DNA of 64,000 nucleotides, from NCBI RefSeq assembly GCF_000253115.1, contig NC_014145.1, forward strand, positions 2,232,001-2,296,000, read 5' to 3'. The notes beneath the pieces were generated by a model. The model ran no database searches, had not been told where the DNA came from, and saw nothing but the letters and a program-made list of their open reading frames with translations. How positions within the stretch are numbered: position 1 is the first letter of the stretch; every line of letters begins with the position of its first letter. The stretch is from Thiomonas arsenitoxydans. Lineage in GTDB: Bacteria > Pseudomonadota > Gammaproteobacteria > Burkholderiales > Burkholderiaceae_C. Made by a program: the position numbers and the translations under genes. This document shows positions 5,354 through 10,080 of this stretch, one piece after another.

Positions 5354-6559
5354 ATGACCCAGTCGCTTTTTTCCCGCGTGGAAATGGCCCCGCGCGATCC
5401 CATCCTCGGCCTGAACGAACAATTTGCTGCTGACCCCAACCCCAACAAGGTCAACCTGGGCATCGGCGTCTATACCGACGCCGACGGCAAGCTGCCGCTG
5501 CTGGCCTGCGTGAAAGCGGGAGAAGCGCAGCTCATGCAGGCGCCCAAGCCGCGCGGCTATCTGCCCATCGACGGCATCGCCGCCTACGACAAAGCGGTGC
5601 AAGGACTGGTGTTCGGCGCCGACCACGAGGCCGTGACCTCGGGCCGCATCGCCACGGTGCAAGGCCTGGGCGGCACCGGCGGGCTGAAAGTGGGCGCCGA
5701 CTTCCTCAAGCGCCTCAACCCCAACGCGCAAGTGCTGATCTCCGACCCCAGCTGGGAAAACCACCGCGCGCTCTTCGAAGCCGCGGGCTTCAACGTGGGC
5801 ACTTATCCCTATTACGACGCCGCCAAGCAGGGCGTGAACTTCGACGCCATGCTCGCCGCGCTCAACGCCGCCGCCGCGGGCACCATCGTCGTGCTGCACG
5901 CCTGCTGCCACAACCCCACCGGCTACGACATCAGCCCGGCGCAGTGGGAACAGGTGATCGCCGCCCTCAAGGCGCGCAAGCTCGTGCCCTTCCTCGACAT
6001 GGCCTACCAGGGCTTCGGCGAAGGCATTGCCGAGGACGGCGCGGTCATCCAGCAATTCCTTGCCGCCGGGCTCGACTTTTTCGTCGCCACCTCCTTCTCC
6101 AAGAGCTTCTCGCTCTACGGCGAGCGCGTCGGGGCGCTCAGCGTGGTTTGCGCCAGCAAAGAAGAAGCCGGCCGCGTGCTGTCGCAAATCAAGCGCGTCA
6201 TCCGCAGCAACTACTCCAACCCGCCCACCCACGGCGCCCAGATCGTCGCCACCGTGCTGGGCTCGCCCGAACTGCGCGCCCAGTGGGAGCAAGAGCTTGC
6301 CGGCATGCGCGAGCGCATCCGCGCCATGCGCAGCACCCTGGTGGAAAAACTCGCCGCCGCCGGCGTGAAGGGCGACCTGTCCTACATCACGCGCCAGAAA
6401 GGCATGTTCAGCTACTCAGGCCTCTCCGCCGCCCAAATGGAGCGCCTGCGCACCGAATTCGGCGTGTACGGCGTCTCCACCGGCCGCATCTGCGTAGCCG
6501 CGATCAATCTGCACAACGTGGACTACGTCGCCAAGTCCATCGCGGCAGTGATGCAGTAA
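5354..6559 (+). CDS. Aromatic/aspartate aminotransferase (class I, fold type I)
   Basis: A 401 aa PLP-dependent aminotransferase of the AspC/TyrB subgroup. The start MTQSLFSRVEMAPRDPILGL matches the family N-terminus. Visible signatures are NLGIGVYTD, the HACCHNPTGYD substrate loop, the Asp that contacts the PLP ring in LDMAYQGFG, and the PLP-binding lysine in SFSKSFSLYGERVG. It transfers amino groups between aspartate or aromatic amino acids and 2-oxoglutarate. It is close to length for TyrB (397 aa). It is divergent from uvrB across about 145 bases. Sequence alone does not separate an aromatic from an aspartate preference. Confidence 0.92.
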   Translation: MTQSLFSRVEMAPRDPILGLNEQFAADPNPNKVNLGIGVYTDADGKLPLLACVKAGEAQLMQAPKPRGYLPIDGIAAYDKAVQGLVFGADHEAVTSGRIATVQGLGGTGGLKVGADFLKRLNPNAQVLISDPSWENHRALFEAAGFNVGTYPYYDAAKQGVNFDAMLAALNAAAAGTIVVLHACCHNPTGYDISPAQWEQVIAALKARKLVPFLDMAYQGFGEGIAEDGAVIQQFLAAGLDFFVATSFSKSFSLYGERVGALSVVCASKEEAGRVLSQIKRVIRSNYSNPPTHGAQIVATVLGSPELRAQWEQELAGMRERIRAMRSTLVEKLAAAGVKGDLSYITRQKGMFSYSGLSAAQMERLRTEFGVYGVSTGRICVAAINLHNVDYVAKSIAAVMQ

Positions 6560-6698
6560 GGGAAACGAAAGTAGCGCGCACCTCTCAGCTCGCGACCCTG
6601 ATCCAACAATCGGATGGACTTGAGCTCTGGCGTGCTGGAATTTCTGGCCCCGTTAGCACTGATCATAAGATCAGTTCTATGGCAAAACGCCAGCGTTC

Positions 6699-6790
6699 AA
6701 GCGCCGTTACACAACTCCCTTGCTGCCGTGTTAAGGCGACAGCGGCGATGTTAGGGAGACAAGAGCCTGTAACCCTATAACGAGTAAGGC
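6699..6790 (+). other. attI-like integron recombination site (orphan)
   Basis: This stretch parallels the class 1 integron attI1 site as I remember it. In order it has a GCGCCGTTAC box, TGTTAAGG at 6729, GCGATGTTAG at 6745, CCCTATAAC, and a GTAAGGC box at 6784 that would be the crossover site (consensus GTTRRRY, one mismatch). It precedes an orphan gene that ends in a half attC site, which is the layout of a first cassette at attI. No integrase gene is present between it and the aminotransferase. The rest of 6560-6815 shows no gene. This rests on remembered similarity, not alignment. Confidence 0.4.
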
Positions 6791-6815
6791 TTCATCAACG
6801 ACGTGAAAGGTTCAT

Positions 6816-7553
6816 ATGAGTCCCGGGTTTAGTGAGCGCACATTTGAGTTTTGCTACAACGCCGAGTACTGCCAGATCAATGCAGCTCTACTCGCCACCC
6901 ACCCACACATCCCGTCCCAAAGAGCCGAGAGAGACCTTGGCTACGACGTAGAGTTCAGGATCAATAGCGGCCACTACACGAGGTCGCTCTTCCTGCAACA
7001 CAAGGTTTCGTCGTTTGCGGAGGTCCGGGCGGGTCGGAACGTACAGTTCTACGCCGCTCATGGCCAACCCTACTTCCGCTTTCCTGTCGACAATGAGCAG
7101 CACAACGTGCTCTGCGAGTTGAGTAGGACCAGAGGCAATGCGTTCTACTGCGCGCCGAGGTTTCATTTGAGCCACGAACTCGAAACCAACTTCCGCGGTG
7201 CGTCGATCGCGCCAAACGCCATCCTCCTTGATCCTTTGGACATAGGAGACATCGCTGACAACGAGCGACACAACATCACGTATGACGCCTTTGGCCAAAA
7301 TCCAACCCTGCATTCCGAGCCTCGTCGATTTCAACGCGCCTATGGCGGCGGCAAGGAGAACGCCCCTGAACTGAAGCAACAGCCCGTTACGGCTGCGTAT
7401 GTCGAGGCTCTGAGTGAAGAACTGGTACGTCGAACCAGAGACTCAAAGTTCAGAGCGTCGGTCACGAAGGAGCTTGAACGCGGAAGCCCAACTGAAAGGG
7501 CGCAAGTGCTACTCGGCCGGGTCTATCAAGTCACGTGGCTGCTACTGCCGTGA
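6816..7553 (+). CDS. Orphan protein, probable integron cassette gene
   Basis: A 245 aa protein I do not recognise. It is soluble, with no signal peptide or membrane segment. It is rich in Arg, His, Asn and Phe, with repeated aromatic-polar stretches (NVQFYAAHGQPYFRFPVDN, RGNAFYCAPRFHLSHELE). Base composition is visibly more AT-rich than the neighbours, with Arg/Leu codons unlike the core genes, which suggests horizontal acquisition. The stop TGA is followed two bases later by GCCTAAC, the R' box of an attC site, as in mobile gene cassettes. Upstream lies an attI-like region, and the start ATG has AAAGG 6 bases before it. The function is unknown. The C-terminal part has a helical, charged look (EALSEELVRRTRDSKFRASV). 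Confidence 0.7.
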   Translation: MSPGFSERTFEFCYNAEYCQINAALLATHPHIPSQRAERDLGYDVEFRINSGHYTRSLFLQHKVSSFAEVRAGRNVQFYAAHGQPYFRFPVDNEQHNVLCELSRTRGNAFYCAPRFHLSHELETNFRGASIAPNAILLDPLDIGDIADNERHNITYDAFGQNPTLHSEPRRFQRAYGGGKENAPELKQQPVTAAYVEALSEELVRRTRDSKFRASVTKELERGSPTERAQVLLGRVYQVTWLLLP

Positions 7554-7554
7554 A

Positions 7555-7595
7555 GCCTAACCATTCGGTCAAGCGGAATTGCCTCCGGCAAGCCC
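7555..7595 (+). other. Truncated attC (59-base element), 5' half
   Basis: GCCTAAC (R' box, 7555-7561) is followed by CATTCGGTCAAGCGGA, close to the left arm of many attC sites. After it comes a small hairpin TTGCC-TCC-GGCAA that would be the loop of the folded site. The expected returning right arm and GTTRRRY box are missing: sequence from about 7590 is transposase coding. It looks like an attC site cut in half by the IS1182 remnant. Confidence 0.5.
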
Positions 7596-8432
7596 CGGCG
7601 CAACCGCAAAGGCCAGGAACTCAAGACCAACGTCACCGACCCCGACAGCGCCAAGATGGCCACTGGTAAAGGCGTGATCCAGGGCTATGCGGCGCAAGCC
7701 GCGGTGGACAGTGAGCACCAGATCATCGTGGCCGCCGAAGTGATCGGCTCAGGCTCGGAGCAGGCCATGCTGCTGCCCATGGTCAAAGCCAGCGAAGCGC
7801 TGAGAAGGCCGCAGACCCTGATCACCGCCGATGCGGGCTACCACAGCACCGAGAACCTGCAGGCGCTGGCCGAGCAGAACATCGACGCGCTGATCGCGGA
7901 CAACCAGATGAGGCAACGCGACGAGCGCTTTGAAGCGCAGGGCAAACACAAGGCCAAGGGTGATCCGCTGTACGAGAAGAAGCCCACGGGGTCGCCACAG
8001 AAGATGCGGCTGTACCGGCCTGAGGACTTCAAGGTATCCGAGGATCAAAGCCATTGTCTCTGCCCAGCGGGCCGCAAGCTCTACAGCAACGGCAGCGGCT
8101 GCACGATCAACGGGCGAAGCTGCCACAAGTACACCGGCAGCAAAAGCGGCTGCGGGCCTTGCGAGCAAAGACACCGATGCCTGCGCCATCCGCAGCGCAC
8201 GGCGGTGCGGCAGGTGGCGATCTTCAAGAAGAACCAGCGCAGTCCCAACGAGGTTCTCCAGGCGATGAAGCAGCGCATCGGCACGGTGGAGCCGGTGTTT
8301 GGCAACATCCGGCACAACAAGCGATTGAACCGGTTCACGCTGCGCGGCCAACACAAGGTGGGGGTGCAGTGGCGGCTGTATTGCCTGGTGCACAACATCG
8401 AGAAGCTGGCCGGGTGCGACCTGAAGACATAG
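7587..8432 (+). pseudogene. IS1182-family transposase, 5'-truncated
   Basis: About 280 codons of the C-terminal half of an IS1182-type DDE transposase. It enters at SGKPRRNRKGQELKTNVTDP, continues through the catalytic region DADAGYHS-like TADAGYHSTENLQAL, a zinc-binding-like cysteine cluster (CLCPAGRK, CHKYTGSKSGCGPCEQRHRC), and the end VEPVFGNIRHNKRLNRFTLRG, where the final catalytic Glu is expected in VEPVFGN. The N-terminal domain and the first catalytic Asp are missing, so it cannot be active. Upstream of about 7587 the frame runs into integron-like sequence and hits the stop of the orphan gene. No clear terminal inverted repeat was found. Confidence 0.85.
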
Positions 8433-8529
8433 TGGGTGGGATACGAGTCCTGTTCGGTGTCAGAATGAGCGCAGAGGCCTGATCAGACGGGTGGATCAAC
8501 CGAGAACGAAATCAGGAGGGACCCATACC

Positions 8530-8712
8530 ATGGCGATCCAGAAAACTGAACCCATGCGCCAGTCTGCGGCTGGACTTGGGGTTTTTGCACAGCCTCGTTA
8601 TTCGGAGCAGGCTGCTGAAACTTTGCGGTACCTGGTCAGGTCTGGCCTCGTAGCACTTGTTTCGGTTTGCAGCGCACGCTGTTTGCTCTTTCCCGCCGAG
8701 AAGACGGGGTAG
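8530..8712 (+). CDS. Possible small ORF with strong ribosome binding site
   Basis: A 60-codon frame starting ATGGCGATCCAG, with a perfect AGGAGG at 8514-8519, ten bases before the start. The product has a central stretch (LRYLVRSGLVALVSVCSARC) that could be a short hydrophobic helix. I recognise no family. It sits between the transposase remnant and phaZ. The rest of 8433-8787 contains no other gene and presumably holds the phaZ promoter. It could be a leader peptide, a gene remnant, or chance. Confidence 0.3.
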   Translation: MAIQKTEPMRQSAAGLGVFAQPRYSEQAAETLRYLVRSGLVALVSVCSARCLLFPAEKTG

Positions 8713-8787
8713 CAAAACCCCTGCTGCGCTAGCAGATCTACGCGAGTAAAATTTGTGCATCGCAACAAGAAAAGGTCGGAGTCCATC

Positions 8788-10080
8788 ATGGTGTATGACC
8801 TGTATGAAACCCAGCGCTCACTGATGCGGCCGCTGGCTGATTTTGCCGAGGCTGCCGCCAAGTTTTACGCCAACCCGGTGTGGCCTGCGGTGCCGCACAA
8901 CGTCACCCAGCGTGTCTCAGCCAGCTACGACCTGATGCACCGGTTGCTCAAGGACTACGAAAAACCCGAGTTCGGCATCAATAGCGTGCAGATCGAGGGC
9001 AAGACTGTCGCAGTGCAGCAACGGGTCGTGCTGGAAAAGCCTTTCTGTCGTCTGCTGCGGTTCAAGCGGTTTTCTGACGACGTCAGCCTGCTGGGCAAGC
9101 TCAAGGATGATCCGACCGTGCTCATCGTGGCGCCGCTGTCGGGCCATCATTCCACCTTGTTGCGCGACACAGTGAAAACCATGCTGCAGGATCACAAGGT
9201 GTTCATCACCGACTGGACCGACGCTCGCATGGTGCCCACCGAGCAGGGCCGTTTCAGCCTGGATGACTATGTTGCCTACATCCGCGAGTTCATTGCCACC
9301 ATCGGCCCCGATGTGCATGTGATGTCGGTCTGCCAGCCCACGGTGCCGGTGCTGGGTGCCATTTCGCTCATGGCCAGTGCGGGCGAGATCGCGCCGCGCA
9401 GCATGATCATGATGGGCGGCCCCATCGACGCGCGCAAGTCGCCCACGGCGGTGAACAACCTGGCGATGAACAAGAGCTATGAGTGGTTCGAGAACAATGT
9501 GATCTACCGCGTGCCCGCCAACTACCCCGGCGCGGGTCGGCGTGTCTATCCCGGCTTTTTGCAGCACAGCGGTTTCGTGGCGATGAACCCCGACCGCCAC
9601 CTCACCTCGCACTACGACTACTTTCTCGACCTGATCCGCGGCGACAACGATGATGCCGAGTCGCATCGCCGTTTTTACGACGAGTACAACGCCGTGCTCG
9701 ACATGGACGCCGATTACTACCTCGACACCATCAAGCTGGTGTTCCAGGACTTCGGACTGGTCAACGGCACCTGGACGGTGGAAGGCGAGACGGTGCGCCC
9801 GCAAGACATCCACCGCACGGCGCTGCTCACCATCGAAGGCGAGCTCGACGATATTTCCGGCGCGGGGCAGACCGAGGCGGCGCACGACCTGTGCACCGGC
9901 ATCGCTTCGGTCAGCCGTCAACATTACGTGGCAGAAGGCGCGGGGCATTACGGCATTTTTGCGGGACGGCGCTGGCGCGAAAAGGTCTATCCCGTCGTGC
10001 GCGATTTCATCGCCGCGCATCCTCAAGGGGCTGCGGGCGATCCGCCGCGCAAACCGACGCGATCCCACGCCTCCGCCTGA
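8788..10080 (+). CDS. phaZ: Intracellular poly(3-hydroxybutyrate) depolymerase
   Basis: A 430 aa alpha/beta-hydrolase-like protein matching intracellular PHB depolymerases of the PhaZ1 type. The nucleophile is the Cys182 in SVCQPTVP, which replaces the usual lipase-box Ser, as in that family. Other family stretches are VLIVAPLSGHHSTLLRDTVK, FITDWTDARMVP, MMGGPIDARKSPT and the C-terminal GEGAGHYGIFAGRRWR-like region with the catalytic His (EGAGHYGIF). It degrades native PHB granules in the cytoplasm, releasing stored carbon. An ATG 11 codons upstream is also in frame. I chose 8788 because GGTCGGAG precedes it and the family begins MVYDLYE-like. Confidence 0.9.
   Translation: MVYDLYETQRSLMRPLADFAEAAAKFYANPVWPAVPHNVTQRVSASYDLMHRLLKDYEKPEFGINSVQIEGKTVAVQQRVVLEKPFCRLLRFKRFSDDVSLLGKLKDDPTVLIVAPLSGHHSTLLRDTVKTMLQDHKVFITDWTDARMVPTEQGRFSLDDYVAYIREFIATIGPDVHVMSVCQPTVPVLGAISLMASAGEIAPRSMIMMGGPIDARKSPTAVNNLAMNKSYEWFENNVIYRVPANYPGAGRRVYPGFLQHSGFVAMNPDRHLTSHYDYFLDLIRGDNDDAESHRRFYDEYNAVLDMDADYYLDTIKLVFQDFGLVNGTWTVEGETVRPQDIHRTALLTIEGELDDISGAGQTEAAHDLCTGIASVSRQHYVAEGAGHYGIFAGRRWREKVYPVVRDFIAAHPQGAAGDPPRKPTRSHASA

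Follow-up and report, generated by a model that had tools for sequence, protein, structure and literature searches.

Probable remains of a chromosomal integron between an aminotransferase gene and phaZ in Thiomonas arsenitoxydans

Does a single orphan gene, lying between an attI-like site and half an attC, mark the place of a former integron, or did it reach its position in some other way? The question is raised by a locus of Thiomonas arsenitoxydans, an acid-mine bacterium, in a DNA stretch of 64,000 nucleotides that was analysed as a whole (hereafter, the window). At 6584–7591 this window very probably holds the front part of a chromosomal integron that has since decayed. It lies between two housekeeping genes, which profile searches identify as those of an aromatic amino acid transaminase (NF006719) and of phaZ (TIGR01849). 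From left to right, one finds a piece encoding the N-terminus of an integron integrase (intI) on the minus strand, the attI-like site, a cassette with the orphan gene, half an attC, and a fragment of an IS1182-type element. Remains of intI, attI, and a cassette are therefore all present, in the order, orientation, and spacing expected of an integron.

General features of the sequence say less. The GC content is 0.51–0.57 over the orphan gene and 0.64–0.68 to its left. Because the stretch before phaZ is likewise at 0.55–0.57, GC content alone says little. Searches of Rfam gave nothing at the locus (64-kb window at the gathering cut-off; 6500–7800 at E up to 5), and there are no tandem repeats in 6500–8900. 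There is also no match to a sigma-70-type promoter for the cassette in 6540–6840, which counts against the integron.

The attI-like site and the integrase remnant

The attI-like site (6724–6790, plus strand) was delimited by alignment with attI1, the type to which it belongs. It contains two repeats with GTTA and a core, GTAAGGC, at 6784–6790. The alignment over 6724–6790 has 46 identities in 68 columns (68%), and its score at the site ending at 6790 is 46.5, against 29.0 at the highest-scoring position elsewhere on either strand of the window and a mean of 30.2 (sd 3.2, largest 38.5) in 60 dinucleotide shuffles of the window. No fewer than 5,000 plasmid records contain the letters of the attI1 query. 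The box order of a class 1 attI, noticed in the preliminary description, is thus borne out by the best attI1 match of the window, above all shuffles. A functional integron needs an attI adjoining intI, and, as far as the letters tell, one is present here: it ranks first in the 64 kb, and its core lies 172 bases from the RLLDQ codon of the intI remnant.

Three properties of this site argue against the integron. Its start box reads GTAAGGC, departing from GTTAGGC and from the general form GTTRRRY. The attI sites of both Thiomonas genomes with intI (G010 and G002) are unlike it, with scores of −1.0 and 6.5 versus 46.5 for attI1. Finally, the 399 genomes of the order hold no similar stretch beyond 22–31 bases: apart from the window itself, there are five matches of this length (E 0.003–0.01), which were taken as chance. 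DNA searches with the attI stretch gave no match in 39 other relatives, and only seven short matches at E 8 in plasmids, also taken as chance. On neither strand does the stretch fold more stably than shuffled versions of it (z of −1.00 and −0.06).

The intI remnant (6589–6666, minus strand) is recognised by its translation, by its match to a profile of IntI N-termini, and by the point at which homology with the closest relative, the Thiomonas genome G006, ends. The matching piece, located before attI, has 17 residues, SSTPELKSIRLLDQGRE (6639–6589), and its frame is open upstream to a possible ATG at 6666–6664. Among the 1,693 open stretches of the window, SSTPELKSIRLLDQGRE ranks first against the profile (i-Evalue 0.0074; next 0.13). 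The profile was built from eight N-termini of relatives, 4 of the 12 loci tried having given none. That the match covers 17 residues only, with a modest E-value, counts against the integron. The intI N-terminus of G010 is of similar form (RSVRLLNQLRERIR), and the integrase of G014 starts with MKPGTPPLLSIRLLDQVRERIRYLHYS.

The spacing of 172 bases can be compared with nine arrays of relatives. A GTTRRRY-like core lies 133–187 bases from the intI codon in six of them and only at 366 bases in one (L058), where a GTTAGGG, outside the core pattern used, is visible by eye; in the other two, such a core is absent within 60–420 bases. As the intI match stops at 6589 and the homology with G006 at 6583, intI is cut there, with a junction near 6583/6584. 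The intact integrase that a functional integron needs is absent from the locus, and the N-terminal piece is all that is left of it.

The cassette, its half attC, and the IS1182 fragment

The first gene cassette (6785–7591, plus strand) lacks its 3′ end. The bases at 6784–6794 and 7551–7561 (GTAAGGCTTCA and TGAAGCCTAAC) are complementary at 10 of 11 positions, and this complementarity between the cassette start and the R″ side of attC places the 5′ end of the cassette at 6784/6785. The cassette contains an intact orphan gene of 245 codons for amino acids (6816–7553, plus strand), with no Pfam or NCBIfam family. The 5′ arm of attC (7555–7577, plus strand), from the R″ box GCCTAAC to L″, was located with a weight matrix and an arm pattern. 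It is followed by the terminal loop TTGCC-TCC-GGCAA (7579–7591, plus strand), after which the sequence has neither the expected 3′ arm nor the R′ box. Hence, of the complete attC that a functional integron needs on its cassette, there remain the 5′ arm and the loop (7555–7591).

The matrix gives 31.2 at 7555, and 13.3 at the next place on both strands of the 64 kb. It has 23 columns and was made from 19 arms of other genomes, 27 distinct arms having been cut to 19 by keeping one of the nine from the array at L062. Among these are the arms of L026 and L027, two loci in which a gene related to that of the cassette occurs; without them the window site scores 30.8, and without the arm of G006 it scores 30.9 against 13.3. 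The 19 arms themselves, each left out in turn, score from 18.1 to 29.7. A previous scan for attC, based on a palindrome score, gave sites in 2 of 12 arrays but overlooked true ones. In the whole genome of T. arsenitoxydans, the arm pattern GCCTAACNNTTCGNTCAAGCNGA with up to three mismatches has two matches: the one at the locus, without mismatch, and another with three mismatches, behind which no 3′ arm is visible. The GCCTAAC box, arm, and loop named in the preliminary description are therefore in place and form the best arm of the window. Against them stands the fold of the half site, which 55 of its 200 shuffles equal (z −0.55).

Right of the loop lies the 3′ fragment of an IS1182-family transposase gene (7592–8432, plus strand), identified by a profile match, its first letters being not exactly placed. 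The frame at 7656–8432 corresponds to positions 261–486 of the 488 positions of the IS1182 transposase profile (a score of 151 bits, where a whole protein has to reach 270). This agrees with the earlier claim that transposase sequence cuts off the right half of attC. The fragment is present in a single copy in its own genome, and elsewhere it has only partial matches of 69–83% identity, in 4 of the 59 other relatives and in one plasmid record. Farther on, comparison with G006 delimits a shared right flank (8606–8760, plus strand) that leads to phaZ and holds a GGTCAGGTCTGGCCTCGTAGCA repeat. A repeat like GGTCAGGTCTRGCYTCGTAGCA (8634–8655 in the window), with the look of a REP element, precedes phaZ in both genomes. 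This type of repeat has one exact match in the window, where none is expected, and similar ones are visible by eye near the same gap in G002, G005, G007, G009, and G010.

The gap in other Thiomonas and the origin of the remains

G006 is very close to T. arsenitoxydans, with 99% identity for the aminotransferase and 97% for phaZ. Its gap between the two genes contains 207 differing bases, made of the end of another reading frame and an attC-like site (L059 from 3413), and then the shared right flank. When folded, the bottom strand of the site reaches a z of −2.29, equalled by 4 of 200 shuffles, and its top strand a z of −2.81, equalled by none of 200. Two Thiomonas species thus have cassette remains between the same two genes, the intI and attI side in T. 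arsenitoxydans and an attC-like site near the right flank in G006, and we infer that both descend from one ancestral integron. Two observations on G006 speak against the integron: the boxes of the G006 site, GAATAAC and GTTAGCA, are off consensus, and the window and G006 have no insert sequence in common. The loop core of the G006 type is found again in contig 16 of G006 (L085 about 2603, degraded) and in contig 110 of G010 (L086 about 11379), with one match each within the stretches examined.

Among the 13 genomes of the genus, T. arsenitoxydans included, the aminotransferase is found in 12 and phaZ in all 13. Both genes are on one contig in 7 of the 12 other Thiomonas genomes, where the gap measures about 80 bases at its shortest (G001) and about 3.6 kb at its longest (G007), and its contents do not match the insert of the window. 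The gap is variable in the genus, with differing reading frames in G005, G009, and G011 and about 80 bases in G001 (L033–L042). The central claim of the preliminary description, that of a former integron which no longer has its integrase or the remainder of its array, gains support, because the N-terminus piece of intI remains at a fitting spacing and an attC-like site occupies the corresponding gap of G006.

The genome of T. arsenitoxydans has nine matches to the integrase family TIGR02249 at E 0.001 and none over the cut-off; the same search also gives matches in all 14 control genomes. In 40 genomes, its own included, matches exceed the cut-off in 14 and reach E 1e-40 in 16. Within the genus, G010 has an integrase match with one internal TAG, and G002 has a partial match under the cut-off. 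The genome G023 has a chromosomal array beside intI (L062), with 31 very similar attC-like palindromes in 19.4 kb. Since the search of the genome turned up no integrase over the cut-off and the locus lacks a complete attC, the remaining integron pieces should be immobile.

The following history would account for these observations. An integron with an attI1-like attI would have sat between the aminotransferase gene and phaZ, with the integrase read towards the left and the cassettes towards the right. Cassettes would have entered at attI when the integrase recombined the core at 6784 with the folded attC of a circular cassette. Then, probably in this order, a deletion would have removed intI except for about its first 26 codons, up to the junction near 6583/6584, while an element of the IS1182 type, of which only a 3′ fragment survives, would together with a deletion have taken away the 3′ half of attC and anything behind it.

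A history that differs from this one only in the arrival of the integron is that the latter, of a class 1-like kind, did not grow here but came into the gap aboard a larger mobile element, which decayed later. It would fit an attI that is closest to attI1 and unlike those of the integrons of the genus, as well as the lack of this stretch in the 39 other relatives. We regard it as rather unlikely, as neither transposon ends nor other cargo are seen beside the IS1182 fragment, and the cassette remains of G006 lie between the same two break points. Far less probable is that no integron ever existed here and that an integrase encoded elsewhere placed a solitary cassette off-target, in a secondary site of the attG type. 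Scattered cassettes that lack intI have been described (PMC8618304, PMC12444791), no integrase gene is left at the locus or over the cut-off in the genome, and the integrases of the genus are on contigs other than that of the aminotransferase. Yet a solitary attG cassette has no remains of intI or attI; here an attI1-like site and an intI N-terminus directly precede the cassette at normal spacing, and such an insertion brings neither. That an orphan gene is flanked by attC- and attI-like words by chance is hardly credible, for although every motif is short by itself and half of attC is missing, three separate scans rank the locus first in 64 kb, their hits follow one another in the order and at the distances of an integron, and the corresponding gap of a second species also contains an attC-like site.

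The cassette protein and comparison with known systems

Having taken the locus as an integron relic, one may ask what its cassette encodes. The protein has 193 relatives at E 0.001; among the 120 matches listed, many are on short metagenome contigs, and the source names are hypothetical protein or adenylosuccinate lyase. The cluster of the same protein (P0001) comprises 24 contigs in this listing. No Pfam family exceeds the cut-off in 65 members of the family. The residues G42-Y43-D44-V45, Q61, and K63 are invariant in 65 relatives and in seven forms ranging from Thiomonas to a haloarchaeon, and E7, E17, and E38 are also invariant across the same seven forms, haloarchaeon included. D44...Q61-x-K63 can be read as a motif of the PD-(D/E)XK type. 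On this reading, the gene would most likely encode a small nuclease of the PD-(D/E)XK kind acting on foreign DNA. We consider the chances of the nuclease assignment to be about even, and a role in defence against foreign DNA is a more tentative suggestion.

Five hits in PDB by sequence, all to nanobody or antibody chains and none with an E-value below 0.066, were attributed to chance, as was a match to TrfA at E 0.27, below the cut-off. With PADLOC, 2 of 19 members match one family (best E 0.058), and the protein of the window matches none. In viral contigs, 55 stretches match a pattern, and none encodes a relative of the cassette protein. Distant relatives (26–38% identity) occur in four plasmid records, and 2 of the 399 genomes of the order, its own included, have a match.

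Nine homologs are in loci of named genomes. In three of them (L025, L026, and L027) the gene is followed by an attC 5′ arm, and in three (L023, L025, and L027) GTTAGGC lies 26–29 bases before its start, two loci having both; these features speak for the integron. No arm is seen behind the gene in the other six, which counts against the integron. In Pelomonas sp. Root405 (L029) and in L030, the gene of a form with 36% identity has a DNA methylase gene before it and a helicase gene after it. The neighbours in L029 match PF01555 and ResIII (PF04851), and the frames overlap. These stretches (L029 1182–7968, L030 69–5649) could be a three-gene restriction system with an unnamed middle part. In a Sulfitobacter plasmid (L096 6001–11636), a relative with 29% identity lies opposite genes for an AAA family ATPase and a DNA repair exonuclease. 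It is conceivable, if doubtful, that this is an undescribed small family of the PD-(D/E)XK type, in one place a lone anti-phage integron cassette and elsewhere the third part of a methylase/helicase operon, the part moving between both.

We found no description of this relic in the papers searched: the word integron does not occur in the main text of two Thiomonas genome papers (PMC2829063, PMC4589449), and six papers that mention both Thiomonas and integron have neither word in their titles. Parts of the integron literature describe broken integrase genes as common, nearly a third of intI genes being affected (PMC2426708), and the loss of intI as one route to cassettes without integrase (PMC8618304). 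In Xanthomonas, intI at one fixed locus has frameshifts, stops, or large deletions (PMC12444791). IntegronFinder 2 by default reports arrays without integrase from two attC sites up (PMC9024848), so that the present locus would be passed over. Surveys that count only intI genes, or at least two attC sites, would miss such places, even though a 17-residue piece of IntI, an attI, and one half of an attC are enough here to recognise integron remains that fall below this default. Decayed integrons being familiar, the least ordinary part of the locus is its cassette protein of an uncharacterised family, and the gene offers a candidate, open to testing, for a nuclease family that also occurs in a restriction-type operon.

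In the methylase and helicase loci, the protein is 36% identical to that of the window and, in L029, keeps E7, E17, E38, GYDV, Q61, and K63. There it belongs to an operon with no attC arm, whereas here it is encoded in a free cassette. CALIN, the clusters of attC without integrase, share with this locus a cassette free of integrase but, according to PMC9024848, require whole attC sites, two by default; the window has one half site, with no second good arm match in the whole genome. The integrons of the same genus (contig 16 of G010 and contig 90 of G002) resemble the relic in the form of the intI N-terminus (RSVRLLNQLRERIR in G010). They differ in the attI core, ATTACGTTAGG, and in having intI on contigs other than that of the aminotransferase. 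The likeness with class 1 integrons consists of the attI alignment (46/68), the two repeats before the core, and a divergent intI, at a spacing that is about that of the relatives' integrons; the intI of about 26 codons, the core GTAAGGC, and an identity of 68%, which is far from clinical attI1, set the relic apart. A close parallel in its history is offered by the decayed integrons at ilvD of Xanthomonas, which, according to PMC12444791, kept longer arrays, while here, in another genus and at another place, one cassette and half an attC remain; in both cases, the integron had a fixed chromosomal place, intI was lost by large deletion, and cassettes were kept.
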